A stretch of 38,931 bases of DNA from a virus: positions 1 to 38,931 of IMG/VR virus record IMGVR_UViG_3300047463_000043; one strand, given 5' to 3'. Shown here piece after piece: positions 3,366-31,847 of the stretch. The position numbers were made by a program, and so were the translations under genes. Every line of letters starts with the position of its first letter. Positions within the stretch are counted from its first letter, which is position 1. The notes below the pieces were generated by a model. It searched no databases. It was not told the DNA's origin and saw only the letters and a list, made by a program, of their open reading frames with translations.

Positions 3366-3367
3366 AA

Positions 3368-11916: not shown

Positions 11917-14256
11917 ATGAAACACCTGATTTTATTAATTATTTTACTTGTTTTATTATTCAATGCCGATGCACAAGTGTATCAAGATGTCAAAAAGTAT
12001 TCATCTACCTATTGCCGTTTAGACACGGTTGGTAATGGTGCAAATCATTATTCAGCGAGGAATAATTCCTTATATGCGAAGACTGACTCTTTGTGGTTTA
12101 AGATGGGGCAAGACTCCGTTTATCACGGTCTTCAAATTACAGGCAAGATTTTAAAAGAGAATACCGGTGCATCTTATTTTAACTATAATAATCTTGGAAG
12201 CAAAGAGATTAAAGTAGGTACTTCATCGTTAAGCGGTGGTGAACTCAAAACGAATCAGGTTGTAACATTAACTTATGATTCTACTTACTGGCAACTTTCA
12301 AGCGGTTTGATGGGTACAACAGGCAGTACTGGTGCAACCGGTGCGACTGGCTCTAATGGCTCAACAGGTTCTACTGGAGTTACAGGTGCGACAGGACTTC
12401 AAGGAGTAACTGGTGTAACAGGTGCAGACGGTCAGTCAAATTCTATCTATTACTACCAAGCAAGGACAACAACTACTGCAAACTATCCGGGTGATGGTCA
12501 TATCTCTTGGGATAACGCAACGCAAACATCGGCTACAAATATTAATATCTCGCATTTAACGAACTCAAATGCTGCTACGGATATTGATATTTACCTTGCA
12601 TATTTAAGACCTTATCAAATAATTTTAATTCAAGACCAAAACGCATCTACAAACTATCAAAAGTGGATGATAAACGCAACCACAACAAATAACAATAGTG
12701 GAACGGATTCATCTTATTGGGTAGTTCCAGTCACTCTTTTAGCTTCGAATGGTACAGGCACAACGAACTTCGCAAACAACCACGATTTATTTCTTGGGAT
12801 AATAACTCCACAAGACACTCTTGCTTGGTCTATCAATGGAAATTCGGGAACTAATTGGACTGGTAATTTTATTGGAACTACCGACACTCAAAGTTTAATT
12901 TTTAAAGCTGATAATAATTTCGGAGGTGGTTTAGATGTAGCAAAATCAAATACTTCATTTGGTTTATTGTCTAACAATATACGTCAAAGCTACGGATCAA
13001 CTTGCTTTGGTTATTATTCAGGAGGCAATTTTGATTTATACGATGATTACAATACTTCGGTGGGTTATTTCACAATGAATCAATTACATTCGGGCGGTAA
13101 TAATAACACATCAGTAGGTACATTATCATTAGGTCAAATGACAATAGGAAATAATAATACAACAGTTGGTGCAAATAGTGGATTCCTATTTCAACAAGGT
13201 GATGGAAATGTAGCGATAGGGTATGATGCTATGAGAATAGCAGACACAACAAATTACAACACCGCAATTGGTACATCATCTTTACCCGAACTTTCAAATG
13301 GTACTGAAAATGTGGCTTTAGGTCATAACTCCTTACAAAAGGTTACAACAGGAGACGGTAATATAGGTATAGGATTTAGTTCAGGCGGTACTAACCAACT
13401 TGGGAATTACAATACATATATAGGTTACAATGCCGGAGGAAGTGGAGATACAAGACAAGCAATCTCTTTAGGTTATGAAGCTGGAAGTGCGGATAATACT
13501 TTAACATTAAGTGATTCTACCTTATATGTTTTGCCGGGAGATTCAGCCGTAACATATTTAGGTAGTGCATCAAAGCCTTTTAAAAAGTTAATTACTAATG
13601 AATTACAATTACCAACAGGTGCAGTTAGTGGTTATTATTTAAAATCCGATGCTTCAGGTAATGCAACTTGGTCAGTCGGAACGGCTGGTGTTACAGGAGC
13701 AACAGGAGCAACAGGAGCAACAGGTTATAATGGTACTAATGGAACGAATGGAACTAATGGAACTAATGGAACTAATGGTGCTACTGGCGCAACTGGTGCT
13801 ACAGGAGCTACAGGTACTGCAGGTACTAATGGTGCGACAGGAGCGACAGGAACGAGTACAATGGTTTTTACTGTTACTTCAATCGCATTAGCATCACCAG
13901 CAGATGCAACAAATTATTATATAGGGCAAAATGGTGTAGCAATGGGAACAAATGCCGCTATATTTCAAATATATATGCCTAAAACAGGAACAATTAAATA
14001 TGCTCATTTGCTTTGGTTTGCAAGTGGTACGGCTGGAACAAATGAAACTATTACTGCAAATATTCGTGTAAATAATACCACTGACTACTCAATCGCATCG
14101 GTAGGAAATACTAATGCTAATAAAACATTTACAAACACTTCAATGAGTGTATCAGTTACGGCTGGTGATAATATACAAATAAAAATAGTTACACCAACGT
14201 GGGCAACAAATCCCACAACTGCATCAATTGGTGGTTATTTTGTATTAGAATATTAA
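11917..14256 (+). CDS. Tail fibre with signal-peptide-like start, collagen-like repeats and YadA-like head repeats
   Basis: 779 residues. Residues 1-19 look like a bacterial signal peptide (MKH, then a Leu/Ile core, then NADA before Q20). A first Gly-X-Thr collagen-like run spans about residues 133-172. Residues about 370-510 hold repeats of the type NTAIG / NVALG / NIGIG / NTYIG, as in trimeric YadA-like heads. A second collagen-like run spans about 591-648, encoded by near-perfect 9-bp DNA repeats. The C-terminal ~130 residues are beta-rich and probably bind the receptor. It is probably the trimeric host-recognition fibre. The signal-like start is unexpected for a virion protein. Confidence 0.8.
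13690..13857 (+). repeat. 9-bp tandem repeats encoding collagen-like triplets in the fibre gene
   Basis: In-frame 9-bp units: GGAGCAACA-type repeated three times (from 13698), then GGAACTAAT-type about five times (13730-13777), then GCTACTGGC/GCAACTGGT-type variants. They encode Gly-Ala-Thr and Gly-Thr-Asn triplets. The units are in frame, so copy-number change would lengthen or shorten the fibre shaft without a frameshift. Confidence 0.85.
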
Positions 14257-14266
14257 TTATAAAACA

Positions 14267-14548
14267 ATGGCTAAACAAGTAAACTTTACGCATCCTGAAA
14301 CAGGTGCAAACTATCCACAATCTTATTTTCGTGTGCAACAATGTGACATTTTAAGAGATAGTCATAATTCAGTAGCGGTAATTTATTACGGATATGCATC
14401 AAAACAATCTGCTTTAGAAGGAAAGCAAATCATCTTTTCAAAGAGAACACAAATTGATAATTTTAATGTTCTTTCAACGGATGATTTTAGATCATTAATA
14501 TATACGCAAGAAAGTGATGCTTTCTTTTCGGATGCTATTGATGTCTAA
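14267..14548 (+). CDS. Conserved-looking small protein at the end of the late operon
   Basis: 93 residues starting MAKQVNFTHPETGANYPQSYFRV, mixed alpha/beta, with no signal or membrane segment. It starts 10 bases after the fibre stop behind ATAAAACA, the usual leader form here. As the last rightward gene after the fibre it may be a fibre-associated or tail-accessory protein; the family is not recognised. Its stop codon overlaps the stop of the convergent leftward gene. Confidence 0.6.
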   Translation: MAKQVNFTHPETGANYPQSYFRVQQCDILRDSHNSVAVIYYGYASKQSALEGKQIIFSKRTQIDNFNVLSTDDFRSLIYTQESDAFFSDAIDV

Positions 14549-14904
14549 ATAAACATCGCCAGTCCTTCGGCACTTCGGTTGATTGCGTTTGCTCTCTCAC
14601 GGAGGGATTTGACCATTTCTTGTATCTCTTCCTTTTGATACGAAACATAGTACCCATTGGAAGAAGCAATTAAAGGTAGAAGTCCATTCGACCTGATGAA
14701 GTTGCAAATCTTCCGAAGTTTAGGTTCGCTTAATTTACGAGGGTAGTTTAAAGCCAATCGGTTCTCGTTGAATTTAGAAACGATTTCAGGTGCTTTTATT
14801 GGGTTGTCTTTGGTGTACTTCTTAAAAGCTTTGATGATTATCGGGATGATGGTTAAATCAATCTCATCCAGTTCTTCCGTGTAGTGTTCAAAGTTTGTTA
14901 CCAT
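14545..14904 (-). CDS. Putative winged-helix-like protein, last gene of the leftward operon
   Basis: 119 residues. Residues about 18-85 are helical and end with a hairpin-like stretch (ASSNGYYVSYQKEEI), the layout of a winged helix; the C-terminal ~35 residues are a charged helix. A DNA-binding role is an inference from this pattern only. It overlaps the upstream gene by 17 nt and converges on 14267-14548 with interlocking stop codons. Confidence 0.55.
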   Translation of the reverse strand: MVTNFEHYTEELDEIDLTIIPIIIKAFKKYTKDNPIKAPEIVSKFNENRLALNYPRKLSEPKLRKICNFIRSNGLLPLIASSNGYYVSYQKEEIQEMVKSLRERANAINRSAEGLAMFI

Positions 14905-15115
14905 AAGTGTTTTGGTAGAATGTTTCTGCGTCTATTACTTCGGTGTGGTTTACATTGTAATAAGTATCATTTGAGCCGTTAAAATAGCCTGATAAATAGG
15001 CTTGTTTTATTGCTTCCTTTTCAAGCTTTTTAGCCACTTCAATAGCCTTTCTTACAGGCATTGTACTATCGGTTATTTCTCCTATTAAAAAATCTACTGC
15101 GGTTTGTTTACTCAT
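14888..15115 (-). CDS. Hypothetical protein of 75 residues
   Basis: Mostly helical at the N-terminus (VDFLIGEITDS, KAIEVAKKLEKEAIKQAYLSGY), then an acidic/polar tail. No family is recognised. Its ATG follows an AAAACACAAAACA leader, one of the AAACAC-type leaders that recur before early genes. The 286 bases upstream hold iteron-like repeats, a palindrome and a tRNA-like element, so this gene and the one after it may form a small separate unit. Confidence 0.55.
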   Translation of the reverse strand: MSKQTAVDFLIGEITDSTMPVRKAIEVAKKLEKEAIKQAYLSGYFNGSNDTYYNVNHTEVIDAETFYQNTYGNKL

Positions 15116-15138
15116 TGTTTTGTGTTTTAGGTTTCTTT

Positions 15139-15190
15139 TTACCCCTTAAGTTACCCCCTCAAGTTACCCCTTAAGTTATCCCTAATCGGG
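15139..15190. repeat. Iteron-like tandem repeats (TTACCCCTTAAG)
   Basis: Three direct units, TTACCCCTTAAG (15139-15150), TTACCCCCTCAAG (15151-15163) and TTACCCCTTAAG (15164-15175), followed by a decayed fourth (TTATCCCTAATCGGG). Units contain or nearly contain the palindrome CTTAAG. They lie in non-coding DNA upstream of 14888-15115. Origin iterons or a repressor operator are both possible. Confidence 0.8.
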
Positions 15191-15216
15191 TATATTGTTG
15201 GTTAATTATTATTATT

Positions 15217-15234
15217 TATACCTTGTAAGGTATA
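15217..15234. promoter_or_regulatory. 18-nt palindrome between the iteron-like repeats and the tRNA-like element
   Basis: TATACCTTGTAAGGTATA is a perfect inverted repeat of 8 bp around a GT centre. It is probably a dimeric-protein binding site (operator) rather than a terminator, since no T-tract follows on either strand. A related half, GGGTATA, lies at 15188-15194. Confidence 0.5.
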
Positions 15235-15240
15235 TTTAGT

Positions 15241-15347
15241 AGCCAAAGTCGGATTCGAACCGACATCCATCAGGATAATTAAGGAATCCTATTCCCCCTG
15301 ATATGTTCCCCTTTGGTGGTATTCATTCCCACTTACACCATTTGGCT
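15241..15347 (-). tRNA. Atypical 107-nt tRNA-like element, anticodon uncertain
   Basis: Read leftward, the ends form a perfect 7-bp acceptor (AGCCAAA / TTTGGCT) with discriminator A, and a perfect T-arm (GTCGG, loop TTCGAAT, CCGAC). A D-like arm (GTGT / ATAC, 12-nt loop with GGG) follows the acceptor. The middle is longer than in any normal tRNA. One possible anticodon arm is GGGGA-ATAGGAT-TCCTT (anticodon AGG) with a 4-bp variable arm (ATCC/GGAT), but this leaves about 20 extra bases before it; a longer hairpin ATCAGG/CCTGAT competes. It could be a class II tRNA with an insertion, a decayed tRNA or a tRNA mimic. CCA is not encoded. Confidence 0.6.
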
Positions 15348-15401
15348 AAATGTCAACTTTTGTGATTCAAAAACTTGACTGAATATGTGCTTTTTACTGT
15401 A

Positions 15402-15638
15402 CTATTTTATACCATTCGGTATAGTACCACTTGGTAAAAGCTTCTCTCTATTTGCTACTTCCCTTTCAAGATACCAAATAGCCTTTTTCAAGTCCTCAAT
15501 CGGTTTGCCTTTTTTATCGCACCTTGCGATATATTTAACTGCATTACCAAGATGAAAGTTTAACTCCCAAGCTTCTATGACATTGATAGTTTCGTATGCT
15601 GGATAATTAGCTTGGTAGTGGTCAGGGTGGTTTATCAT
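15402..15638 (-). CDS. DUF3310 family protein
   Basis: 78 residues matching the DUF3310 pattern: HPDHYQ at residues 4-9, INVIEAWELNFHLGNAVKYIARCDKKG in the middle and the LKKAIWYLEREV helix. This family is widespread in phage early regions; its biochemical role is not settled as far as I know. It overlaps the upstream NinG-like gene by 4 nt, so the two are probably co-translated. Confidence 0.85.
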   Translation of the reverse strand: MINHPDHYQANYPAYETINVIEAWELNFHLGNAVKYIARCDKKGKPIEDLKKAIWYLEREVANREKLLPSGTIPNGIK

Positions 15639-16027
15639 TTTATCGGATGAATTAAAGAACGATAATGGTCTATTAAGGACTCCATTTCAGGAGTGGAAAT
15701 CTTGACAGTCTTGTTTCTTTTAATGCTCAATTCCTCCAGTATATCACTTCCGTATCTTTTAACTAAAGCAAGGGAATAGTTCGGATAGTTTCCTTTTAAA
15801 AAAATATTACATCTTTTACATTGAGGATAGCAATTTAATTCATCCCAACGAGTTGATCGGTGTACCCGGCTGATGTAATGTCCGCAGTCCATTTCAGTCC
15901 AATGGTAAGATTTACCACAAGAGATACATTCATTGTAGCCATCAATGGCGGTTCGTGTCCTTATCCAAATTGAAAATACTCTATCAAGTTCCTTTTCAAG
16001 CGAACTTCTTGTCCTTCTTTTTTTCAT
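15635..16027 (-). CDS. NinG/Rap-like recombination protein
   Basis: 130 residues with the NinG (lambda Rap) signature: a basic N-terminus, CISCGK (Cys34, Cys37), DCGHYISR (Cys48, His50) and RWDELNCYPQCKRCN (Cys66, Cys70, Cys73), followed by NPNY-like GNYPNY. These cysteines and histidine form a zinc-binding HNH-type core. In lambda, Rap promotes branch processing in Red-mediated recombination. Here it shares the early block with a RecA-like ATPase and a PD-(D/E)XK nuclease, supporting a phage recombination module. It overlaps both neighbours by 4 nt. Confidence 0.85.
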   Translation of the reverse strand: MKKRRTRSSLEKELDRVFSIWIRTRTAIDGYNECISCGKSYHWTEMDCGHYISRVHRSTRWDELNCYPQCKRCNIFLKGNYPNYSLALVKRYGSDILEELSIKRNKTVKISTPEMESLIDHYRSLIHPIK

Positions 16028-16284
16028 AGCTGGGTAAGGAATTTAATATCGGTTAGGATAACATCTCCACATAAAGCGAGATAATCATTTTTAATGTAAG
16101 ATAACAGGCGAGATGCTAATATGTTTTGCTTCATCCCTTCTTCGTAATCTTTCCGGCAAATAAAAATGTAGTAATCGGTAAGGCAGATAACTGAAATACC
16201 ACCACCGACAATCTTCTTTGCTTCTTCAATCGTTGGATTTGAGATAACAAGTTGAGTGCCGGTGGAGGTAATCAGGGTGGTCAT
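16024..16284 (-). CDS. Small early protein, DUF3846-like pattern
   Basis: 86 residues. The order TIEEAKKIVGGGISV, then DYYIFICRKDYEEGMKQNILASRL, then LCGDVILTD resembles DUF3846 (a VGG segment, an N-x-x-A segment and a G-D-V-V/I-L end), a family frequent in phages and mobile elements. The match is by eye. Function is unknown. It ends overlapping the NinG-like start by 4 nt and begins on the last base of the upstream stop. Confidence 0.55.
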   Translation of the reverse strand: MTTLITSTGTQLVISNPTIEEAKKIVGGGISVICLTDYYIFICRKDYEEGMKQNILASRLLSYIKNDYLALCGDVILTDIKFLTQL

Positions 16285-16568
16285 TAAAATGGGAGATCGC
16301 CTTTTAAAATGTCGGGGATATTTTGCTCATTACGTTGAGCAAAAGTACTCAATGGTTCTCCTTTGGGTTCAGGTTTCCAATCATCCACTTTAATGTAATG
16401 GGTTTCGCCGTACTTACCTTTTTCCTTTCGCTTTTGGATTTCGAGATTGAAGTACCCTTTTTCGTTGGTGATTGATTTGATTTGTTCGATAAAATCTTCG
16501 GTCTTTCCGGAGAATTTAATCCCAAATTTCGACTCCTTTAGAGTCACTTTGTTGATGTAGTTAGCCAT
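16284..16568 (-). CDS. Possible single-stranded DNA-binding protein
   Basis: 94 residues: a beta-rich N-terminal two thirds with basic residues (YFNLEIQKRKEKGKYGETHYIKVDDW) and a flexible C-terminal part ending DILKGDLPF. The last residues resemble the acidic DDxPF tip that SSB proteins use to recruit partners. An SSB is expected near a recombination/replication gene set, and none is otherwise recognised here. No OB-fold can be demonstrated by eye, so this is a hypothesis. The ATG follows a TTAAACACTTTAAACACA leader. Confidence 0.5.
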   Translation of the reverse strand: MANYINKVTLKESKFGIKFSGKTEDFIEQIKSITNEKGYFNLEIQKRKEKGKYGETHYIKVDDWKPEPKGEPLSTFAQRNEQNIPDILKGDLPF

Positions 16569-16588
16569 TGTGTTTAAAGTGTTTAAAA

Positions 16589-16813
16589 TTAACGATTATT
16601 TGGTACATAGCCTATTGCTCCGACAATCTCCGACATTTTGCGGTCACAATCCTCGCAAGGACATTTGCCGGGTATATGTTCAGGTTCGGGTGGGAAGCTG
16701 AACCGATGTCTTTCGTACATTCCTTTTCGATATTTTTCTGCAAGGACTTTGGCGAGGTGTTCGGTGTTTAAATTAAATGGATGCTGGACATCTTCGTAGA
16801 GGTTGTAAGTCAT
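16589..16813 (-). CDS. Small protein with CxCxxC motif
   Basis: 74 residues, basic in the middle, with GKCPCEDCDRK near residues 49-59: three closely spaced cysteines that could bind a metal. The gene lies 14 bases after the helicase-methyltransferase gene, and its AAACACTTTAAACACT leader extends into the end of that gene. Function unknown. Confidence 0.55.
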   Translation of the reverse strand: MTYNLYEDVQHPFNLNTEHLAKVLAEKYRKGMYERHRFSFPPEPEHIPGKCPCEDCDRKMSEIVGAIGYVPNNR

Positions 16814-16827
16814 AGTGTTTAAAGTGT

Positions 16828-19035
16828 TTAGAATAATATAGATTGAGATTTAGAAACTATTGCCGTTTTTAAATTAGCCTTTGCAAGATCGTAGTAGCTT
16901 TCTTTTAATTCAAAGCCAATTCCCTTTCTTTCCATTTTTACGGCTTGATAAACTTCTGATCCAATACCCATAAAAGGAGTAAATACAATATCTCCTTTAT
17001 TAGAATACAAAAGTATTAATCTTTCAATGGTATCTAATTGCAAAGGACAAATATGCTTTTCATCATTTTCTTCTCTGCCATTTCTAAAGCCCTGAAGTGT
17101 ATTTCCGTAATCAATATCCATCCATACTGGAGATGCTATTTTTTGCCATAAATCAACACTCATATCTGTATTAGTTACAGGGCTTGTTCTATCTCCATCC
17201 TTTCTAAAAATCATAACATAATCAGGAATGCCAACTCTACTCATTGTACTATCTTTTTTAACTTGCTTATGAAGCAATCCTAATGCCTTTGTTCTTTGCA
17301 TTTCAATTACTGGATCTTTCCAAATTGTAACCCTTGATGCGTAAATAAATCCAGCTTGTTCAAATGCCTTTAATATCATTCCGCTAAAATCTCTAAGACC
17401 AATAAATCCCTCTTTACCTTTTTGAATTGGAAGATCCATACAATGAACACAAACATTCCTACCTTGTTTCATTACACGATGAAGTTCTTTAATCAAATAT
17501 CCAAATTGAGTCAAGAACTCCTTGTAATCTTTTGAATTACCCATATCTTCAAGATGGCTTGAATAAGTATAAAGTTCAGCAAAAGGTGGGCTAAAAACAC
17601 TAAGACCTACGCTTTCATCTTCAAGACTGGTTATAAGTTGGCAGCAATCACCTCTCTTAATATTATACCATTCGTTTTTTTCTTCCGTAATATCATAACT
17701 GGCTTTACTCATCATCTTTCCGCTAAGATTGGCATTTACTGCGTGGCTCATTTCGTCTTGCATAAGTTCAAATTGTTTTTGTTTTTGATTAATAGCTTCA
17801 TTAACATTACTCATAGTATCAGTTGTAATTAAATAAATATCAACTTCATTTTTCTGACCAAATCTATAACTTCTTCTGATAGCTTGATATAGTCCTTCAA
17901 AAGAAAAGTCAAGGCTTGCAAAAATCTGATTACGACAGTTTTGGTAATTCATTCCAAAGCTGGCAATCTTTGTTTTGGTAATAAGTATTCTAAATTCATT
18001 ATTAGCAAATCCTAATAATGTCTTTTCTTTATATTCATTACTATCACTACCCTTTACTTCTCTTGCTTCTGGAAGAAGTTTTTTAAGCATTTCACCTTCC
18101 TCATTTTGTTTAATCCAAATGATAAAGTTTTCATTAGGCTTTTGATTAACAATAGATACAACTTCATCAAGCCTTTCTATTTTAGTAAGCCTAAGTTCCT
18201 GATTAAAATTAGTAGCTGATATTATAGCATCATTAAACAAACTGCCATTATCTCTTTTGGGTGTTATTATTTGTTTCTCAATAAGATTAAGTTTTGGAAG
18301 GTGGTATCCATCCATAAAAAATCCTATATCATGCGGTTTATTTAGCATAATAGCCCAACTACCAACAAATTGATAAAACAATTTAACCGCATGACCTTTT
18401 AATCTCCATTTAGCAGTCTCTCCGCCATCGTGAACAAAATACATAGCAAGCATTTCGTTGCGGCTCATTACATCCAAAAACTCAGAATGATTACCCAGCT
18501 CCATTGGATCATTTGGACTTGGTGTAGCGGTACAAGCTAACTTATACGGAGTTTTGGCAAAGGAATCTATAATAAGTTTCTTGGTAGCCCCTTCGAAGTT
18601 TTTTAATATACTGCTTTCATCTAATACGATACCGCCAAATAAGCTGCAATCAATGTTCTCTAATTGCTCGTAATTACTTATTTGAATTGGAGCATTAGAT
18701 CCGTCATATCTGCAAGTTTTGATATTAAATTTATGCCCTTCTTTCAATGTTTGACCAGCAACAGCAAGTGGAGCAAGAATCAATACAGGCTTATTAGTAT
18801 GCTTATTAACTTGATTTGCCCATTCTAATTGCATCAATGTTTTACCTAATCCGCAATCTGCAAATATTGCATACTTCCCAGCTTTTAATGCACGTTTAAC
18901 TATAAACTTTTGAAAGTCAAACATAGATTTATTTAGATTTGACTCATCTATATCAAATCCACTTAAAATATGACATTTTTGTTTTTGTTCTAAAAATTTT
19001 AGATACTCTGATTGTTTATTAATATTTTGTTTCAT
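16828..19035 (-). CDS. Fusion of SF2 (SNF2-like) helicase and DNA methyltransferase
   Basis: 735 residues. The N-terminal ~430 form an SF2 helicase: Walker A CGLGKT (61-66), DESS (139-142), TATPSPND (169-176) and motif VI QAIRRSYRFGQ (384-394). Residues ~455-735 form an amino-methyltransferase with catalytic SPPF (482-485) and AdoMet-binding FTPFMGIGSE (685-694), in the permuted beta-class order. Such enzymes modify adenine N6 or cytosine N4. No nuclease domain is visible, so this is not a self-contained restriction enzyme. Protection of phage DNA from host restriction, or a remodelling role at replication forks, is inferred. By eye its DNA is more AT-rich than its neighbours. Confidence 0.85.
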   Translation of the reverse strand: MKQNINKQSEYLKFLEQKQKCHILSGFDIDESNLNKSMFDFQKFIVKRALKAGKYAIFADCGLGKTLMQLEWANQVNKHTNKPVLILAPLAVAGQTLKEGHKFNIKTCRYDGSNAPIQISNYEQLENIDCSLFGGIVLDESSILKNFEGATKKLIIDSFAKTPYKLACTATPSPNDPMELGNHSEFLDVMSRNEMLAMYFVHDGGETAKWRLKGHAVKLFYQFVGSWAIMLNKPHDIGFFMDGYHLPKLNLIEKQIITPKRDNGSLFNDAIISATNFNQELRLTKIERLDEVVSIVNQKPNENFIIWIKQNEEGEMLKKLLPEAREVKGSDSNEYKEKTLLGFANNEFRILITKTKIASFGMNYQNCRNQIFASLDFSFEGLYQAIRRSYRFGQKNEVDIYLITTDTMSNVNEAINQKQKQFELMQDEMSHAVNANLSGKMMSKASYDITEEKNEWYNIKRGDCCQLITSLEDESVGLSVFSPPFAELYTYSSHLEDMGNSKDYKEFLTQFGYLIKELHRVMKQGRNVCVHCMDLPIQKGKEGFIGLRDFSGMILKAFEQAGFIYASRVTIWKDPVIEMQRTKALGLLHKQVKKDSTMSRVGIPDYVMIFRKDGDRTSPVTNTDMSVDLWQKIASPVWMDIDYGNTLQGFRNGREENDEKHICPLQLDTIERLILLYSNKGDIVFTPFMGIGSEVYQAVKMERKGIGFELKESYYDLAKANLKTAIVSKSQSILF

Positions 19036-19044
19036 TGTTTAGTG

Positions 19045-19296
19045 TTAGTTGTTAATGTGTCGGTTAGTGATTATTTTATTATATCCTCTTTTTGCGTTAC
19101 GATCTCTATGAGGGCAGATGTGAAAGCCTAAATAAGTATGCGGAGGAACTTCTTTCGGGTTTAAGAGCCAATGTTGGACTCTTAATATCTCCATATCCAA
19201 ATCACGAAGTATCAAGTGACCGTGTCTTTTACCGTTGTTTTGGCGGTACTTTTGCAGTTCCTCAAGGTACTTCGCCATTCTCTCGTGCCTACTCAT
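19045..19296 (-). CDS. Small basic protein
   Basis: 83 residues from the ATG at 19296, rich in Arg, Lys and His, with a helical N-terminus (MSRHERMAKYLEELQKYRQ) and a HICPHRDRNAKRGYN segment near the end. A longer version would need a TTG at 19320. The ATG is preferred because it overlaps the upstream stop (ATGAGTAG), a usual coupling arrangement here. It may bind nucleic acid, judging only by charge. Function unknown. Confidence 0.55.
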   Translation of the reverse strand: MSRHERMAKYLEELQKYRQNNGKRHGHLILRDLDMEILRVQHWLLNPKEVPPHTYLGFHICPHRDRNAKRGYNKIITNRHINN

Positions 19297-19522
19297 AAAG
19301 TGCTTGGATTTCTTTTTCAAACAACTTTTTAAAGTCCTGTCTTAAAAACATCAAATCAATCAAAAAATAAATGTCTACTCGCTTTCCTTCGTTCAAAATG
19401 TAAAGTTCTTGGATTTCAACATCGCAGTATTCAGGTGTGTCGAAGTCACCCGGACAATAATCAATTTCAACAACCGCTTCTAATTCGTAACCTTCGTAGT
19501 TTTTTTGGATAGTGTGTTCCAT
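19289..19522 (-). CDS. Small acidic early protein, first gene of its operon
   Basis: 77 residues, acidic, with an N-terminal beta-rich half (YELEAVVEIDYCPGDFDTPE) and a hydrophobic/helical C-terminus. It directly follows a strong promoter (19554-19585) and its ATG sits behind ACTAAACACTTAAACAA. It is thus the leading gene of the block running to 14545. Small acidic first genes are often host-takeover or anti-defence proteins in phages, but nothing specific is seen here. Confidence 0.55.
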   Translation of the reverse strand: MEHTIQKNYEGYELEAVVEIDYCPGDFDTPEYCDVEIQELYILNEGKRVDIYFLIDLMFLRQDFKKLFEKEIQALYE

Positions 19523-19553
19523 TTGTTTAAGTGTTTAGTGATTAATTATAAGG

Positions 19554-19585
19554 CAAAGATACATCCTCAAAAGCAATTCTCCAAA
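19554..19585 (-). promoter_or_regulatory. Strong Bacteroidota-type promoter (leftward)
   Basis: Read leftward: TTTG (19585-19582), 20 bases, TATCTTTG (19561-19554), an exact match to the TTTG/TAnnTTTG consensus. It lies 32 bases before the ATG of 19289-19522 and probably drives the small-protein, helicase-methyltransferase and recombination genes to its left. Confidence 0.85.
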
Positions 19586-19654
19586 TTTATTTTAAATTAT
19601 TTTCAAGTAGTTTTAAACAAGTGAATGTTTATAACCTTTAAATACTTTAAAATT

Positions 19655-20029
19655 CTACAAATTTCCAAGATTATCACCTTTAGAAGTAAGCCATTCGGCT
19701 TTATATAAACTTATCGCAGTTCGTATGTATTCGATTTTAGTGATGATTGCCTTGTTCAGCATCTTGCAAAGTTCGTGTGTGGCTTGTTCTTCTGCGGTTT
19801 TAGCATTAATAATCTTCGATAGGATAGAAGCTTTTGAATATAGATGCTGGTTATCCTCTAATGCAATCAGTTCGGCTTTCCGAAGTTCTTTTAATGACTC
19901 CGAAACAAGTAAACTTGATAGACCTTGAATCGAAGTAAGGCGAGAAGCGAGATCGGTCATTTGCATTGTTGAACTATTATCCACTGGTTCTTCAAGTAGT
20001 TCTTTTATTTTTTCAATTGCTTGAATCAT
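19655..20029 (-). CDS. Helical early protein of unknown function
   Basis: 124 residues, nearly all helical, with long amphipathic stretches (about residues 30-60 and 70-115) ending YIRTAISLYKAEW. It overlaps the upstream gene by 4 nt, suggesting shared translation with the two replication-initiation-like genes. Similar all-helical proteins occur beside phage replication and recombination genes, but I cannot name a family. It is followed by a 132-base gap that holds the 19554 promoter. Confidence 0.55.
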   Translation of the reverse strand: MIQAIEKIKELLEEPVDNSSTMQMTDLASRLTSIQGLSSLLVSESLKELRKAELIALEDNQHLYSKASILSKIINAKTAEEQATHELCKMLNKAIITKIEYIRTAISLYKAEWLTSKGDNLGNL

Positions 20030-20610
20030 TTCTTTACCTTGTTTAGATGTTCATCAATCTCTTTTACTGTCTTTAAATGAGGTGGGATAATTATCGCCAT
20101 TGGTTCGTTTATAGTCGGACTTATTCGATGATGTATGTCGCTTGACTCTTTATGCTTGGTATTTTCTTTTTCAAAATAATCAAGCCGATCGTTCTCAAAC
20201 CTATTCGCCCAATCTCCCAAAGTTTCATAGCTGAAATTCTTATTGCTCTTGCCGTACTTTCCTGTTATACCATTTCTTAAACACATCGTGAAATCATCTA
20301 AAGACCAATGCTCAAACTCTTGGCTGAACATATCTGCATAGTTCCCTATCTCGTTAGATGTAAGATTATGACCTACGAATGTCAATGCTTCTTTCAGTAG
20401 GTACATTATGCAAGTAACAACGTAAGCTTCCCCCTTGTCTTTTATCAGCCATTTGATTTGATACCAGTTCTTGTTACTGAAAGTCAATTCACTTGCTGAC
20501 CGTGAGGTTATGACTGTCAGGTTATTATCGAACCGAGTCAGGGTAACGCTTTCGTATTTCTGCTGCGATGTCTTCGTTAGTGATTTCTCGTTTTGCGGTT
20601 TGTTTTCCAT
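20026..20610 (-). CDS. Replication-associated protein, DUF6633-like pattern (possible helicase loader)
   Basis: 194 residues. The central region (about 55-145) reads as IKDKGEAYVVTCIMYLLKEALTFVG, then MFSQEFEHWSLDDFTMCLRNGITGKYGK, then FSYETLGDWANRFENDR. This helix-rich layout resembles DUF6633-type proteins and phage helicase-loader-like proteins of Bacteroidota; the match is by recall. The N-terminal 28 residues are encoded in the same DNA as the C-terminus of the upstream gene (86-nt overlap); no later Met is available until well into the conserved part. Confidence 0.55.
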   Translation of the reverse strand: MENKPQNEKSLTKTSQQKYESVTLTRFDNNLTVITSRSASELTFSNKNWYQIKWLIKDKGEAYVVTCIMYLLKEALTFVGHNLTSNEIGNYADMFSQEFEHWSLDDFTMCLRNGITGKYGKSNKNFSYETLGDWANRFENDRLDYFEKENTKHKESSDIHHRISPTINEPMAIIIPPHLKTVKEIDEHLNKVKK

Positions 20611-21352
20611 TTTTTATAGAATGTATGATGTTAGTTAAATTACTTGAAATTTGAACGAGTTTAAGTTGTTTTTGTAGAAAGGCATCCCATTTGACAAAGT
20701 TGTCAAGTATAGCCTTCCAACCTTCTAAAATCTTGGATTCATCCGGATTGATTTGTTTTAAGTAAGCAAGGATAGATTTTAGCGACTTTCCTTCTACTGC
20801 GTTAATGTTCGGTGGTACTCCAGTTTTCTCTTTTATGAAATCATAATACAAGGTCATTGATTCTTTATACAATCTCCCCTCTGCACTCCCCTCTTTATCC
20901 TTATCCTTATCCTTGTCTTTATCCTTATCCTTGTCTTTAGCCCCATATAAGGGGCTTGTAAGGGGCATCGTAGCCCCTTCTTTTTTTATGTCTTCTAAAT
21001 TTTCAAGGTCTATTCCGTGTTTTTCCAAATTGGAAATAACTGAAGAATGCACTCGGTTTGCCGGATTTAACTTGCCGTATTGTTCATTTAAAAAAGTAAC
21101 GATAAACCAAGACTTGCCGTTATCAAGCTGAATAATTCTAACATCGCCAGTATTGAATAAAACAAGGGCTTTTTCAGCATCAATTTTAGCATCTTTTCCA
21201 ATGTAAATTTGTGCGATTTCTAAATCAACTATCCAAATGCCTGAATGATCGCAGTCGAGATTTATTAAATCCCAAAAAAGTTTATATGCAGAAGGTAAGC
21301 TTCGGTAAAAAGGACTTCTAAATTTGTTTGTGTCCGTAAATCTTTTCGCCAT
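20525..21352 (-). CDS. Replication initiation/replisome-organiser-like protein with Lys-Asp linker
   Basis: 275 residues. Residues ~1-105 look like a winged-helix N-terminal domain of phage replication initiators (FRSLPSAYKLFWDLINLDCDHSGIW, then ANRVHSSVISNLEK). A low-complexity linker follows at about residues 138-154 made of seven Lys-Asp pairs. The C-terminal part (about 160-250) is helical, as in DnaD-like domains. Such proteins open the origin or bring helicase to it; with the next gene this probably forms the phage replication-initiation pair. The first gene product after the 21460 promoter apart from a possible 42-residue leader ORF. Confidence 0.65.
   Translation of the reverse strand: MAKRFTDTNKFRSPFYRSLPSAYKLFWDLINLDCDHSGIWIVDLEIAQIYIGKDAKIDAEKALVLFNTGDVRIIQLDNGKSWFIVTFLNEQYGKLNPANRVHSSVISNLEKHGIDLENLEDIKKEGATMPLTSPLYGAKDKDKDKDKDKDKDKEGSAEGRLYKESMTLYYDFIKEKTGVPPNINAVEGKSLKSILAYLKQINPDESKILEGWKAILDNFVKWDAFLQKQLKLVQISSNLTNIIHSIKNGKQTAKREITNEDIAAEIRKRYPDSVR
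20893..20938. repeat. Hexameric microsatellite coding the Lys-Asp linker
   Basis: Plus-strand units TTATCC and TTGTCT/TTTATCC-type alternate about seven times. On the coding (minus) strand they read AAGGAT/AAAGAC, encoding repeated Lys-Asp. The repeat is in frame in units of six, so slippage would change linker length without frameshift. Confidence 0.85.
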
Positions 21353-21446
21353 AAAAAATAATACCCCACCAATCGCGAAGGCTACCCCTTTTGACCTTCA
21401 AGTCAATCGGCATCACGATGGTGAGGATAATTTTAAATGTTTTCAT
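21318..21446 (-). CDS. Possible 42-residue leader peptide gene upstream of the replication initiator
   Basis: ATG at 21446, only 14 bases after a well-formed -7 element, followed by 42 codons and a TAG that lies 35 bases inside the next gene. The peptide starts MKTFKIILTIVMPIDLKVKRG, hydrophobic then basic, and contains RDWWGIIFYGEK and HKQI near the end. It may be a small membrane-associated protein or a regulatory leader peptide. The same DNA carries several inverted repeats, so it might instead be a structured untranslated leader. No second copy exists in the window for comparison. Confidence 0.4.
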   Translation of the reverse strand: MKTFKIILTIVMPIDLKVKRGSLRDWWGIIFYGEKIYGHKQI

Positions 21447-21455
21447 TGGGGTAGC
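21364..21455 (-). promoter_or_regulatory. Structured leader RNA with alternative pairings
   Basis: In the leftward transcript, GCUACCCC (21455-21448) can pair with GGGGUAGC (21388-21381), 8 bp. The overlapping CCCCAAU can instead pair with AUUGGUGGGG (21373-21364) apart from a two-base bulge. A small TTGAC/GTCAA hairpin lies between. The alternatives would differ in exposure of the first ATG and of the region before the initiator start. No known riboswitch class is recognised. Confidence 0.4.
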
Positions 21456-21459
21456 ACCG

Positions 21460-21490
21460 CAAAAATAACTAAAAATAAATCAAATCCAAA
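21460..21490 (-). promoter_or_regulatory. Bacteroidota-type promoter inside the nuclease 3' end (leftward)
   Basis: Read leftward: TTTG (21490-21487), 19 bases, TATTTTTG (21467-21460). Spacing and both elements match the consensus. It lies within the last codons of the nuclease gene and would give the replication genes independent expression. Confidence 0.7.
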
Positions 21491-22152
21491 CGGTCATTCA
21501 AATAATCTTCACGGTTGATGTCGGTATTTGTGATTAAAAGCTTCCTTGACTCCATAAAACCGATTAAATCCGAGCAAATAACTTTCAGCTCATTTTCGTA
21601 TAAATACGGATCATACGGATATAACTCATAATAATACTCTCTAAAATCAGTTACCAAATAGTTGAACTTATTCACGAAAATACCCATTTGATTAGCACCC
21701 ATCAGGTAAACTTTGTGCTGGAAGGACTTATCAAACTTCGGGAAGGAGTAAGAACTGGTTGTTTTCAAATCAATAATTGTATCTCGTGAAATGAAATCCG
21801 AGTAGCCGTAAAGGTTAATCTTGAAATCATCCATTAAAAACGAGTAAACAAGTCCTTTTTGATAGGTTGAACCTTTGACAAAGTGGTGCATTGACTTCAC
21901 AAGGTCAGCATCGAATTTAAATTCCTTTCCTTCGCCACGTTGTACTGTTGGCTCATTGATATAGATAGCCTTTTCAAAAGCACTACCTTTCTCCATTGCT
22001 TCAGTAGGTTCAAAAGGCACTCTATTTATTTTATCTATCAGTTGAGATTCGGAAACAAAAGGGATGAAATCATCCCCTTTGTCATATCCGGCTTCAGTTT
22101 GATATAGATAAAAGTCATTGAGCAATGTTGCCCATATATTAAAGACTTTCAT
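21469..22152 (-). CDS. PD-(D/E)XK nuclease (RecB/Cas4-like phage exonuclease)
   Basis: 227 residues with the core of the PD-(D/E)XK exonuclease superfamily: GSAFEKAIY with Glu60, GYSDF with Asp119, IDLKTT with Asp128 and Lys130, then a helix with FQHKVYLMGANQM (Gln145 and Tyr149, as in the Q-x-x-x-Y motif). Such nucleases resect DNA ends or trim recombination substrates. It overlaps the RecA-like ATPase gene by 14 nt, so both are probably made together, like exonuclease/recombinase pairs in other phages. Cas4-like cysteines are absent. Confidence 0.8.
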   Translation of the reverse strand: MKVFNIWATLLNDFYLYQTEAGYDKGDDFIPFVSESQLIDKINRVPFEPTEAMEKGSAFEKAIYINEPTVQRGEGKEFKFDADLVKSMHHFVKGSTYQKGLVYSFLMDDFKINLYGYSDFISRDTIIDLKTTSSYSFPKFDKSFQHKVYLMGANQMGIFVNKFNYLVTDFREYYYELYPYDPYLYENELKVICSDLIGFMESRKLLITNTDINREDYLNDRLDLIYF

Positions 22153-23035
22153 AAATACCCTCCTCTTTATTGTATTTTAATTTCAGTTCGGCAAGTTTAG
22201 ACCTCAAGTGGTTTTGTGCGATCAATTTAGAATCCCAAATTACTTCCATTGCCTTTACTTCGTTAGTTACTTCAAGAGCCATTTCAGGACTATCTATTGA
22301 GCCTATTTTCTCCTTAATGACATCAACCAAAGTCATATAGTCCTCTAACATTAATGCACTCTCTCCTTGCTCTTGGAAGTATTGCTCAAAAATCCCTGTC
22401 AAATTACCTTCACCAGTAGCCACATCGAATTGTATAGCTTGAAGATTGCAAGTGTTCTTTCCGTAGTAACGATCGGTAGGGGAGCAATTCACTACTCTTC
22501 TATTATTTACCGACTCAATGTAACCAACTAAATCCATTGAACGCATTATAATAGCCAAAGAACCACCGATGATGTCAGGTCGAATAACGGTATTATCACC
22601 ATCTTTACCTTCTTTATCGTGGGCAATAAAGATGATGTGTTTATTCATCGTAGCCATCATCGAAAGGAAAGCGGTAAATCGGTTCTTAAGAACTCCGTAG
22701 CCTTGCAAAGTAAGACCACCATTAGAGCCAAGTTTCGGTTGTTCTTTGATTATTTGCTGGGTTAAGAAGTCCAACATCGAACCGGCGGTGTCAATGATAA
22801 TTGTTTTGTAAGGCGATAAGTCCTCGCGAGTGATGGACATAATATCATCCCAAGAATTAACAGGAATGTAGTCCTTTCGGAACTTCATTGATACACGATG
22901 AATGCCTTTGTCGCAGTCAATTAAAAGTGGACTTGGTGCGGTCATTGCCCAAGATGTTTTGCCGATACCCGGCTGACCATAAAACAATGCTTTAAGAGGT
23001 TGTGTTTGGTCGATTTCGTTTGCTTTTTTAATCAT
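22139..23035 (-). CDS. RecA-like ATPase (Sak4/AAA_24-type phage recombinase)
   Basis: 298 residues from ATG at 23035. Walker A is GQPGIGKTS (residues 20-28) and Walker B is TIIIDTA (Asp82). Downstream are IIFIAHDKEGK (sensor-like) and DIIGGSLAIIMRSMD. This matches phage nucleotide-binding proteins of the AAA_24/Sak4 group, single-strand annealing-type recombinases that pair with SSB. An in-frame ATG at 23071 would add 12 residues, but those codons are the AACACTTAACACA leader seen before other early genes, so 23035 is preferred. The nuclease follows with a 14-nt overlap. Confidence 0.8.
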   Translation of the reverse strand: MIKKANEIDQTQPLKALFYGQPGIGKTSWAMTAPSPLLIDCDKGIHRVSMKFRKDYIPVNSWDDIMSITREDLSPYKTIIIDTAGSMLDFLTQQIIKEQPKLGSNGGLTLQGYGVLKNRFTAFLSMMATMNKHIIFIAHDKEGKDGDNTVIRPDIIGGSLAIIMRSMDLVGYIESVNNRRVVNCSPTDRYYGKNTCNLQAIQFDVATGEGNLTGIFEQYFQEQGESALMLEDYMTLVDVIKEKIGSIDSPEMALEVTNEVKAMEVIWDSKLIAQNHLRSKLAELKLKYNKEEGIYESL

Positions 23036-23040
23036 TGTGT

Positions 23041-23059
23041 TAAGTGTTAATTGGTTAGT
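23041..23059. repeat. 19-bp direct repeat, copy A (before the RecA-like gene)
   Basis: TAAGTGTTAATTGGTTAGT occurs here and, identically, at 30313-30331 after the capsid gene; flanking TTGTGT(T) extends the match to about 25 bases with one indel. Here it is the leader region of the RecA-like ATPase gene (read leftward). The window itself begins inside the same repeat at position 1. Confidence 0.85.
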
Positions 23060-23366
23060 AAAAGTTGACAATTCTTCTAAAGGAACTAATGATGATTGCT
23101 TGATCCGTCATTCCTGTCTTTTCTTTCTCCGAACGCATAAGCTTGTGCATAGCTTCGGGAATTTGAAAGTAATAAGGAGTAGAGCAATACTTAATGTGGT
23201 TTTGTTCGGCAGAAAACTTCACTTCATCGGCTAATTTATATCTAATAGCAAGAGCCAGTCGAAGGAGTTCGGAAGGTTTTTTAAAGTCAGGATGATTATC
23301 TGCTAAATAACTTAAGGCGGAGTTTATATCATCAGGTAGGTTTACGGCTTTGATTTTAGTTTTCAT
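23055..23366 (-). CDS. Putative ribbon-helix-helix DNA-binding regulator
   Basis: 103 residues from ATG at 23366. The N-terminal part (IKAVNLPDDINSALSYLADNH, then KKPSELLRLALAIRY) has the strand-helix-helix spacing of RHH (CopG/Arc-like) proteins; the C-terminal part (YYFQIPEAMHKLMRS, then MTDQAIIISSFRRI) looks like a second, weaker one. This suggests an early transcription regulator. An ATG at 23390 is possible, but 23366 overlaps the upstream stop (ATGAAAACTAA), the usual coupling. It lies just before the RecA-like gene. Assignment rests on pattern only. Confidence 0.5.
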   Translation of the reverse strand: MKTKIKAVNLPDDINSALSYLADNHPDFKKPSELLRLALAIRYKLADEVKFSAEQNHIKYCSTPYYFQIPEAMHKLMRSEKEKTGMTDQAIIISSFRRIVNFY

Positions 23367-23577
23367 ATTTGTCGGTGTTATCGGAAACATATGCTTGTTT
23401 AATTACATCGGTTGAAGGCTCTTTAGTTCGGTTTAAAATGTTGTAATAAACCGACTCTGCTACCTCTAAATCATCGCAAGTCCTTACAAGACTATCCCCA
23501 TACCATACGGCAAAGTAGGTTTCAATGATTCCCTCACGGTTAAATTCGTTCCGTTCAACGATTTTTAGTTCTTTCAT
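23356..23577 (-). CDS. Small early protein, first gene of its operon
   Basis: 73 residues, beta-rich at the N-terminus (KIVERNEFNREGIIETYFAVWYGDSLVRTCDDLEVAES) then helical. The pattern resembles small phage proteins of unknown function. Its ATG is behind an AACTAAACACT leader, 52 bases after a -7 element at 23629-23636. It is the first gene before the regulator, ATPase and nuclease. Function unknown. Confidence 0.55.
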   Translation of the reverse strand: MKELKIVERNEFNREGIIETYFAVWYGDSLVRTCDDLEVAESVYYNILNRTKEPSTDVIKQAYVSDNTDKYEN

Positions 23578-23628
23578 AGTGTTTAGTTTTAAAGTTTCTG
23601 CAAATTAAACACATAAAAACATACAATG

Positions 23629-23636
23629 CAAATATA
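23629..23636 (-). promoter_or_regulatory. Probable promoter -7 element (leftward)
   Basis: TATATTTG read leftward fits TAnnTTTG. No convincing TTTG is found 19-21 bases upstream, so only the -7 half is well supported. It lies in a 183-base gene-free stretch between 23577 and 23761 that also holds a terminator, and would serve the block starting at 23577. Confidence 0.5.
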
Positions 23637-23731
23637 TTTCAAAAATAATTTAAAATAGTTTTGCACAATGGATTGTTAGTCCGTTGTTTAAATGAATTAA
23701 AAAAGTGCTAAAATGAAGAAATTTGTCGGGA

Positions 23732-23760
23732 AAACAACAGTCCGGACTGAATGCGGACTA
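23732..23760 (-). terminator. Intrinsic terminator after 23761-24087 (leftward)
   Basis: Read leftward, directly after the stop codon: stem AGTCCG / CGGACT (6 bp), 9-nt loop, then GTTGTTTT. The loop overlaps the palindrome CAGTCCGGACTG, so an alternative hairpin exists. It separates the metallophosphoesterase operon from the next leftward promoter. Confidence 0.6.
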
Positions 23761-24087
23761 TTAGTTTACTTCAGCACGGATTTTATCTCCAAGTTGTATC
23801 ATATATTCTTGAAGTTTTCCGAAAAGAATATCCGGTTTACCATTGACATAAGCGACATTACCCGACTGAAAGATTACCTGACTGAAGTATTTCTTATTAC
23901 TCTTGCCTTTTGGGATTAGGCATTTAGGGTTAATTTGGACTATTGGATCGTTCAAAAGGTTAAAGTACCCCGAATCAATGGTATAATCTTCGCCTAAACG
24001 AATGCGGTCAAGTTCATCCAGTTCCTCATCTTCGGTATAAAGACTATTAGTAAACGGATAAATGATGTCAATTTTAAATAGTTCCAT
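23761..24087 (-). CDS. Hypothetical early protein
   Basis: 108 residues, mixed alpha/beta, acidic near residues 17-35 (YTEDEELDELDRIRLGEDY) and basic near 60-68. It shares one base with the stop of the metallophosphoesterase gene, so both form a two-gene operon ended by the hairpin at 23732-23760. No family recognised; a partner of the phosphoesterase is possible from linkage only. Confidence 0.55.
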   Translation of the reverse strand: MELFKIDIIYPFTNSLYTEDEELDELDRIRLGEDYTIDSGYFNLLNDPIVQINPKCLIPKGKSNKKYFSQVIFQSGNVAYVNGKPDILFGKLQEYMIQLGDKIRAEVN

Positions 24088-25082
24088 TAGTACACCTTGC
24101 CTTTAATGATTTTAAGATTCTCTAAATGGTATTCCCCTGTATTAAAATCGTGTTCTATATACGCGAAGCCGTGATTGTGTTTATTTATTCGCATATAGTA
24201 AGGGGTAAGAGTACAAAGACACCCAATACTTTGAACTGAAATCACATCACCTCCAAAAGCGGTTTCAACGTGGGAAGAAGTTCGATGGAAGTGTCCGACA
24301 AGGACATTATTTAAAGTTTTAAGGAAAGTACTTCTCGCTGGGTTAACACCCCCACTCCCTCCCGGCATCTCGTGTCCGTGTAAGACTGCAAGTTTACCTA
24401 TTTTAACCGGTCTTCTATCTTTAACTATCTCAATCTTTAACTCTCCTAACCTCAAACGGACTTCTAATTGATATTCAGGATCGTTGAAAAGTTCAGGTGC
24501 TTTGACATATAACCACTTTTCCCATCTTTCATCGTGATTTCCTTCTTTAAAAACTATCCTCGCTTTTGGGAAAGCTTTCCTTAATTCCCTAAAAAACTGC
24601 CTTGCTGACTCAAATTCTTCATAAGGACTCCTTTGCCTCCACTCTCTTTCGTGTCTGCTTAACTGGGCGAAGTCCATTACATCGCCATTTATAAGGATAA
24701 AATTGACATCTTTCTTTAAGCCATAGTTTAAAGCGGAAGTAATGGCTTGATTATCTTGGTAAGGGAAATGTAAGTCGCTGATGATAAGTCCTTTTGTATC
24801 ATCTATTCTAAAGTCCTCAAAATTAGAATCAACTGATTCAGGCAGATTGAAAGGATTGACAGTACCCGGTTTAGTAAAAAATGACTTATCAGTAGTTTTA
24901 TTCCTGTTTAATTCCCCTGATTGACCTCTTACCCTTCTAATAGCAGAACGTACACTCTCAAGGTCTTTAAAGTACTTCGGATGCTCTTTATATATCTTTT
25001 TAGCAAGAGTCATCGTAGGAATATCGGGGAATTTTAAAAGGTTTTCCCGGACTATTTCAGTTCCTGAAGTGTATGGTCGCAT
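24087..25082 (-). CDS. Calcineurin-like metallophosphoesterase
   Basis: 331 residues. Metal-binding motifs in order: SDLHFP (Asp103, His105), NGDVMDF (Asp134), GNHDER (Asn182, His183), LHGHE (His235, His237) and VGHFHR (His264, His266). This is the full set for a two-metal phosphoesterase. The first ~95 residues hold a helical, basic region (LAKKIYKEHPKYF, then SAIRRVRG) that may bind DNA. Phage relatives are annotated as DNA nucleases or phosphatases; its substrate cannot be told here. As first early gene beside the divergent promoter it is probably expressed soon after infection. Confidence 0.85.
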   Translation of the reverse strand: MRPYTSGTEIVRENLLKFPDIPTMTLAKKIYKEHPKYFKDLESVRSAIRRVRGQSGELNRNKTTDKSFFTKPGTVNPFNLPESVDSNFEDFRIDDTKGLIISDLHFPYQDNQAITSALNYGLKKDVNFILINGDVMDFAQLSRHEREWRQRSPYEEFESARQFFRELRKAFPKARIVFKEGNHDERWEKWLYVKAPELFNDPEYQLEVRLRLGELKIEIVKDRRPVKIGKLAVLHGHEMPGGSGGVNPARSTFLKTLNNVLVGHFHRTSSHVETAFGGDVISVQSIGCLCTLTPYYMRINKHNHGFAYIEHDFNTGEYHLENLKIIKGKVY

Positions 25083-25141: not shown

Positions 25142-25531
25142 ATGTATAATAGAGAAGATTTAATCGAAAAAGCGGTTAAGGCAATCAAAGATAATAACCT
25201 AACCACGATAGATGAAGCCGTTACTTATCTTCCGTGTGCAAGAAGTACATTTTATCAGCTTGAATTGGAAAAAACGGACTCCATAAGAGAAGCAATCGAT
25301 AACGAGAAGATGGCGATGAAGCAAAAAATGAAGCGAAAATGGTTGGATAGCGATGCTTCAGCACTTCAAATAGCCTTAATGCGTTTAATCTGCACCGATG
25401 AAGAACGGCAGAAGTTAGCGATGAACTACTCTCAAAACGAAATCAAGGTCACTAAACCTATCATCATTGACTGGTCTAACAATTCGCCCGACACCGAAGC
25501 AGAGGGAAGCACACCAAGCACTACAATCTAA
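25142..25531 (+). CDS. terS: Terminase small subunit
   Basis: 129 residues. The N-terminal half is an HTH-like helical region (VKAIKDNNLTTIDEAVTYLPCARSTFYQLELE) of the kind that binds the packaging site, followed by helices for ring formation and a Ser/Thr-rich tail. It directly precedes the large subunit, overlapping it by 65 nt, which is the usual arrangement. No sequence family is certain by eye, but the position and HTH make the assignment likely. It is the first gene after the rightward promoter. Confidence 0.75.
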   Translation: MYNREDLIEKAVKAIKDNNLTTIDEAVTYLPCARSTFYQLELEKTDSIREAIDNEKMAMKQKMKRKWLDSDASALQIALMRLICTDEERQKLAMNYSQNEIKVTKPIIIDWSNNSPDTEAEGSTPSTTI

Positions 25532-26711: not shown

Positions 26712-26723
26712 TAAATAATTTCT

Positions 26724-26731
26724 TATCTTTA
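26724..26731 (+). promoter_or_regulatory. Possible weak promoter before the portal gene
   Basis: TATCTTTA with TTTA 20 bases upstream: each element is one base off the consensus, spacing is right. It ends 15 bases before the portal ATG. Because the terminase stop is only 35 bases upstream, read-through could suffice. Confidence 0.35.
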
Positions 26732-26746
26732 CATATAAACTATTCA

Positions 26747-28144: not shown

Positions 28145-28186
28145 AAAGTATCAACTTAAAGTATTAGTTTAAGTAAAATAAAATAA

Positions 28187-28194
28187 TATCTTTG
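28187..28194 (+). promoter_or_regulatory. Promoter -7 element immediately before the prohead protease gene
   Basis: TATCTTTG matches TAnnTTTG exactly; the only upstream candidates for the -33 element are weak (TTAG, 19 bases away). The ATG follows after five bases, so a transcript started here would be leaderless or nearly so. Confidence 0.5.
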
Positions 28195-28199
28195 TATAA

Positions 28200-29012: not shown

Positions 29013-29013
29013 A

Positions 29014-30312: not shown

Positions 30313-30331
30313 TAAGTGTTAATTGGTTAGT
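30313..30331. repeat. 19-bp direct repeat, copy B (after the capsid gene)
   Basis: Identical to 23041-23059. It lies between the capsid stop and the terminator, where no leftward gene starts. The window's first bases (from position 1) correspond to its third base, so the contig end falls in this element. Confidence 0.85.
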
Positions 30332-30362
30332 GGGGGAGGGGTAGTGTCCTCCCCCATTTTTT
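30331..30362 (+). terminator. Intrinsic terminator after the capsid gene (copy 2)
   Basis: Same perfect 9-bp stem (TGGGGGAGG / CCTCCCCCA), 8-nt loop and T6 tail as copy 1, 30 bases after the capsid stop. It should end most capsid transcripts and limit expression of the downstream lysis-like genes. Confidence 0.9.
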
Positions 30363-30369
30363 AAAAAAT

Positions 30370-30440
30370 AGCGGATTAGAGAAAAGGTATCTCGTTAGGT
30401 TCATTCCCTAAAGTTTGCAGTTCGACTCTGCAATCCGCAA
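30370..30440 (+). tRNA. tRNA-Met (CAT anticodon), copy 2
   Basis: Base-for-base identical to copy 1 over the 71-nt cloverleaf, including the A1-A72 mismatch, the CAT anticodon in loop TTCATTC and the T-loop TTCGACT. Full identity, while neighbouring genes differ, suggests purifying selection on the RNA. Confidence 0.8.
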
Positions 30441-30446
30441 CAAAAG

Positions 30447-31057: not shown

Positions 31058-31058
31058 T

Positions 31059-31229: not shown

Positions 31230-31234
31230 AAACA

Positions 31235-31744: not shown

Positions 31745-31842
31745 TTGACAAGGAGTCTTTAGAGATTGTTTCTTTTGTTGTGATAATGGCTTTTTTATTC
31801 ATCGTTTATCAATGGTGGGAAGACCGCAATCCTTTTGAGTAA
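31741..31842 (+). CDS. 33-residue single-pass membrane peptide (copy 2)
   Basis: Frame, length and overlap as in copy 1, with V9I and A22V inside the hydrophobic core and unchanged WWEDRNPFE tail. Conservation of the open frame in both copies supports expression. Function unknown. Confidence 0.6.
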   Translation: MIDKESLEIVSFVVIMAFLFIVYQWWEDRNPFE

Positions 31843-31847
31843 ATTTA

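Follow-up and report, generated by a model that had tools for sequence, protein, structure and literature searches.

Proteins and gene pairs that combine a helicase-type motor with a DNA methyltransferase are already known; the architecture occurs in many phages and the dyad is already in print. The closest relatives belong to PHROG 16, the phage 'DNA helicase/methylase' family of actinophages and Flavobacterium phages, whose members are full-length homologues of the protein discussed here, either fused or encoded by adjacent genes. The FCV-type relatives of Flavobacterium are annotated only as hypothetical. The portions of the literature covered by our search contain no description of a clamp-binding tail in this family. 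A comparable combination, an SNF2-type ATPase with an amino-methyltransferase and without a nuclease, is found in the DarB/polyvalent-protein dyad, for which an anti-restriction function was proposed in the sections available of PMC5512222. In the DarB type described there, a gamma-class methyltransferase is located N-terminal to the helicase and an LPD36 domain is present. MhgA from a gut Bacteroidales ICE also joins, as described in PMC8102008, a methylase and an SNF2 helicase in one protein without a nuclease signature. A methyltransferase and an SF2 ATPase are likewise united in the type III restriction-modification systems (Mod + Res).

Two further systems are relevant for the coupling of methylation to replication. 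M.EcoGIX and M.BceJIII are characterized in PMC7736820, in the part available, as plasmid replication-associated methyltransferases, which act with DNA polymerase I on single strands. They share with the present proposal a replication-tied methyltransferase that aids a mobile element against restriction, and the same part of that paper describes neither a motor domain nor a clamp motif. M.EcoGIX, acting with DNA polymerase I, provides a precedent for replication-associated anti-restriction methylation. In Dnmt1-PCNA, a methyltransferase is bound to a sliding clamp via a short motif (PMC9690074, as excerpted). Dnmt1, however, is a eukaryotic C5 methyltransferase that performs maintenance methylation. 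A clamp-binding phage DNA methyltransferase was not encountered in the literature searched.

The window, i.e. the whole analyzed stretch of 38,931 nucleotides, encodes a 735-residue protein whose features are collected in Table 1. The initial annotation, which left the strand unstated, had read it as an SF2 helicase followed by a permuted beta-class amino-methyltransferase in a single polypeptide without a nuclease, and this description is confirmed.

Table 1. Position of the helicase-methyltransferase gene and its functional elements in the window.
Feature	Position	Strand	Basis
Whole gene, 735-aa helicase-methyltransferase	16828..19035	-	ORF and translation; PHROG 16 over 29-734, E 2.8e-75
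SNF2-type SF2 ATPase, residues about 31-432	17740..18945	-	Pfam; AlphaFold2 model vs INO80/ISWI motor cores
Walker A, DCGLGKT, residues 60-66	18838..18858	-	Identical in 81/81 sequences
Beta-class amino-methyltransferase, residues 456-730	16846..17670	-	PF01555; model aligned to TTHA0409 (2zie)
Methyltransferase motif IV, FSPPFA, residues 481-486	17578..17595	-	Identical in 81/81
Methyltransferase motif I (SAM binding), TPFMGIGS, residues 686-693	16957..16980	-	77/81 identical; other 4 with a one-residue difference
Loop 574-604, position of likely DNA-recognition loop, unusually conserved	17224..17316	-	Conservation percentile, dN/dS
C-terminal clamp-binding-like peptide QSILF, residues 731-735	16831..16845	-	Q731 nearly invariant in alignment A1; motif counts vs controls

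In the helicase half, Pfam recognizes ResIII (40-172), SNF2-rel_dom (67-182) and Helicase_C (285-393), all above cut-off, and the motifs GLGKT (Walker A), LDESS, TATP and QAIRRSYRFGQ are present. The second half matches N6_N4_Mtase (PF01555) over residues 478-719 with 76.9 bits (cut-off 26.7). Its motifs are permuted as in the beta class, with motif IV (SPPF, 482-485) ahead of motifs X (660-667) and I (PFMGIGS, 687-693). Both sets of motifs are intact, with small changes at most, in 81/81 sequences. An AlphaFold2 model built from 39 sequences (mean pLDDT 79.5) shows an SNF2 fold in the motor half, which aligns to the INO80/ISWI cores with Z 30.6 over 368 residues (3.3 A), while the methyltransferase half aligns to TTHA0409 (2zie) with Z 26.3 over 222 residues (2.6 A). 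The similarity to PHROG 16 extends across both domains (PHROG profile; tblastn), making the protein a member of that family. The median dN/dS amounts to 0.065 for the helicase and 0.068 for the methyltransferase, indicating strong purifying selection, with many synonymous distances saturated and 29 and 65 of 80 pairs usable, respectively. Because of these low values and the hundreds of homologues, a chance open reading frame is excluded and the gene is real.

None of the six Pfam matches at E <= 0.1 in the protein is to a nuclease family, which supports the earlier reading, although a nuclease foreign to Pfam is possible. The nine neighbours scanned together with the gene also contain no nuclease family except that of the NinG resolvase (15635-16027). 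Thus, the nuclease carried by the helicase subunit of type III systems was not found by Pfam in this protein, which also differs from them in being one polypeptide without a large variable target-recognition domain. The proposed likeness to DarB does not extend to family membership, which is rejected since the present protein, of 735 residues, is of the beta class and starts with the helicase. MhgA differs in its size (1659 aa) and is described as an N6-adenine methylase (PMC8102008). Identity with the actinophage methylase family, as far as presented in PMC9957025, was rejected as well, as ShiLan_65 lacks full-length homology to the window protein.

The two halves are closely associated. Among 31 loci from phages and genomes (L082-L112) both halves are found in 30, fused in 20 of them and as separate neighbouring genes in the other 10. 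The split halves can lie in reversed order with one gene in between (L083) or be separated by an HNH gene (L085). A tree of 50 sequences requires 5 changes between the fused and the split state, of which at least 3 are forced by well-supported branches; the tree is provisional owing to long branches in several rows. The divergence of the halves is correlated (Spearman 0.89, n = 25, none of 2000 permutations as high), as would also be expected from common descent alone. Since fused and split forms alternate, the helicase and the methyltransferase probably function together. One alignment of relatives left out L088, L093, L106, L107 and L112.

The gene is widespread. The protein matches 412 records of the phage collection, 304 of them over at least 80% of its length (tblastn); among the matches listed, the annotations are helicase, methylase, 'DNA helicase/methylase' or hypothetical. 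A pattern scan of viral contigs yielded 515 relatives among 522 matched stretches, compared with 29/30 for the portal, 4/7 for the terminase and 1/4 for Sak4 in scans of this kind with those genes of the window. The single Sak4 locus was too little for a control set of neighbouring methyltransferases. Relatives occur on contigs assigned to many bacterial phyla, and bacterial genomes and plasmids contain homologues too. The best 80 of the 515 relatives (80-88% identity) are referred to as the close loci. In 78 of these, DNA similarity to window 14000-21999 is restricted to the helicase-methyltransferase gene, the exceptions (L043 and L077) having one extra similar piece each. When 21 other window genes were tested, 13 had no homologue in the close loci; the commonest of them all (24087-25082) occurs in 12. 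From this confined similarity and the rarity of the other genes, the gene looks like a mobile single-gene cassette, a property that the initial annotation had missed together with the C-terminal tail. The two small open reading frames proposed as partners (16589-16813 and 19045-19522) have homologues in 0/80 close loci, which speaks against the partnership, short frames being hard to detect.

The tail is the new element in this family. The window protein (P0001) ends in KSQSILF, and in alignment A1, built without regard to any motif, the tail consensus is KxQxxLF with a nearly invariant Q731. According to the parts available of PMC11139829 and PMC9690074, clamp-binding motifs take the form Q-aliphatic-x-[LM]-[FL] or QL[SD]LF, are often C-terminal and tolerate variation at position 2. 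A loose form of this motif is found in the last 16 residues of 76/78 complete close relatives and in 24/577 control open reading frames from the same loci; a narrower expression gives 69/78 and 6/577, and the strict published motif is present in 42/78. The window copy fails the strict form because of the serine at position 2 of QSILF. The loose and narrow expressions were designed after the first tails were known, and only the distant set, obtained later, is an independent test: here the loose motif occurs in the last 20 residues of 48/79 relatives (35/714 controls) and the narrow form in 16/79 (2/714). Many of the 31/79 distant relatives without the loose motif retain an SLF/DLF-like core without the glutamine. 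When all 187 tails are reduced to 30 representatives with <60% identity, 21 match compared with 67/1291 controls (Fisher p 1.6e-19), and the overall rate of the loose motif in control frames is about 4-5%. These counts omit L030 and L045 (close) and L229 (distant), where the protein runs past the sequence end, and L107, whose methyltransferase is truncated at the end of the contig.

The motif follows the methyltransferase: split methyltransferases mostly carry it, and it was found in 0/10 split helicase halves. A set of 26 complete PF01555 methyltransferases, taken from genomes of one Bacteroides family, gave a single match, itself a member of the helicase-methyltransferase family, leaving 0/25 for the others. 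The long subfamily (L086, L087) ends in MPDLF/MPSLF without glutamine. In the AlphaFold2 model the tail residues have poor confidence (pLDDT about 55). Judged by its sequence, QSILF resembles the bacterial beta-clamp-binding motif Q-x-x-L-F.

Sliding-clamp genes are found next to some of these pairs. In Alteromonas phage XX1924 a DNA polymerase III beta clamp gene sits between the methyltransferase and the helicase. With this clamp as tblastn query over the collected loci, nine more matches were obtained, all in loci of the helicase-methyltransferase family; Pfam confirmed the five of these that were checked. The clamp gene lies directly downstream of the pair in L224, about 270 bp downstream in L188, and nearby in L112, L174 and L178. 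The latter two belong with L180, L182, L183 and L185 to a group of close relatives in which it is located a few kb upstream on the opposite strand. Of about 194 family loci, 10 have clamp genes in total, which amounts to roughly five lineages since six of the 10 are closely related. In the phage collection, a different one that allows a rough comparison only, this query detects a clamp in 79/50,697 records. In Rhizobium phage RR1-A a clamp gene and a family gene are about 8 kb apart.

Among 31-residue windows of 50 non-redundant sequences, the likely DNA-recognition loop (574-604) ranks in the 96th percentile for conservation, and in the 25 most divergent sequences in the 93rd; its median dN/dS is 0.022. 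A variable target-recognition domain is therefore rejected; the recognition segments suggested in the initial annotation do not have the look of one. The conservation points to one fixed short target, or to relaxed specificity, rather than to a specificity domain that diversifies. S-P-P-Y/F as motif IV is a mark of N4C methyltransferases. As motif IV is SPPF here, N4 of cytosine is more likely as the predicted target than N6 of adenine. The long subfamily, from Pseudomonas and Mycobacterium phages, contains SIPF as motif IV and a ~100-residue insert after 612, near the recognition region.

We give about even chances to the reading in which the enzyme, docked on the sliding clamp, methylates the phage's own DNA in step with its replication, as a protection from host restriction. 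The 735-aa protein would then be a phage self-modification enzyme. Its SNF2-type motor would translocate along double-stranded DNA, driven by ATP, and the beta-class domain would methylate an exocyclic amino group, probably that of cytosine N4. The last five residues would dock the enzyme on the host beta sliding clamp, and in some relatives the docking partner would be the phage-encoded clamp. New phage DNA could in this way be methylated behind the fork, ahead of cutting by host restriction enzymes. Of the initial annotation, the architecture stands and the function in part, as motor-assisted self-methylation remains attractive with methylation and anti-restriction as predicted steps; the partners and the membership of the DarB family find no support. 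Diffusion is the usual assumption for how phage methyltransferases reach their sites. If the enzyme is indeed docked on a clamp and driven by a motor, this would explain the complete modification of new phage DNA before restriction; a viral DNA methyltransferase would join the known clamp clients, and the tail would offer a directly testable peptide. More tentatively, the enzyme might be a phage counterpart of Dnmt1-PCNA: a motor-driven, clamp-riding methyltransferase that marks nascent DNA at one fixed short target, travels as a single-gene cassette and in some phages is accompanied by their own clamp.

Self-methylation against restriction could also proceed without a clamp, the motor carrying the methyltransferase on the DNA and the tail having another role or capping the C-terminus. 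This would agree with the coupling and mobility of the two halves, with the action proposed for the dyad in the available part of PMC5512222 and with the distant relatives that lack the loose motif. It is considered the less probable option, as the tail peptide shows conservation and is particular to this methyltransferase family, and several lineages have adjoining clamp genes. A UvsW-like recombination or replication helicase with an accessory methyltransferase is unlikely. Its early location with Sak4 (22139-23071) and NinG would fit, as would the primases, DnaB, RecT and YqaJ adjoining the relatives, and a related staphylococcal phage helicase is paired with VRR-NUC without a methyltransferase. 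However, a second, separate SF2 helicase is encoded by XX1924, snusmum6-1 and a Rhodoplanes plasmid, 16/80 loci have a DnaB-like gene no more than 2.5 kb away (flanking-gene clusters were named by eye and single members only checked), and the mobility as a single gene is contrary to such a role.

An epigenetic regulator, whose methylation would time phage replication, packaging or transcription, is more doubtful still. A fixed short target is plausible, given that conservation in the recognition-like loop exceeds that in most of the protein, but the patchy spread of the gene between phages whose DNA is otherwise dissimilar suits an accessory function better than a regulator bound to one genome. 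Least credible is a prophage-borne component of defence or superinfection exclusion. Helicase-methyltransferase pairs are known from defence systems, the bacterial genomes and plasmids contain homologues, and PADLOC, whose matches here are to generic models of methyltransferases and helicases, has ZorD and DrmD among those of the helicase. Against this, no effector nuclease was found beside the gene in the window by Pfam, and no restriction endonuclease family appears among the 25 commonest of the 76 Pfam families that were found in 115 neighbours of bacterial copies.

Some minor observations concern the relatives and the surrounding sequence. In a homologue from a Dethiobacter MAG (L106:7998-11180) an intein (PF14890, 38.6 bits) is located in helicase motif II, and on the Rhodoplanes serenus plasmid (L148:4004-7192) the split helicase and methyltransferase genes flank one for a C5 cytosine methyltransferase. 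The small protein encoded at window 16284-16568, which matched no Pfam family, ends in DLPF, by eye similar to the tails of single-strand-binding proteins. The early genes (NinG, Sak4, metallophosphoesterase) occupy window 14545-25082 on the minus strand and the head genes 25142-30300 on the plus strand; an integrase was not seen among the window proteins scanned. The ends of the window are homologous: 1-127 and 30315-30441 share exactly 127 identical bases, including tRNA-Met, and beyond these 129-8603 and 30442-38931 are related with about 91% and 85% identity. The window looks like one genome of ~30.3 kb whose contig was continued via the shared 127-mer into a related strain.
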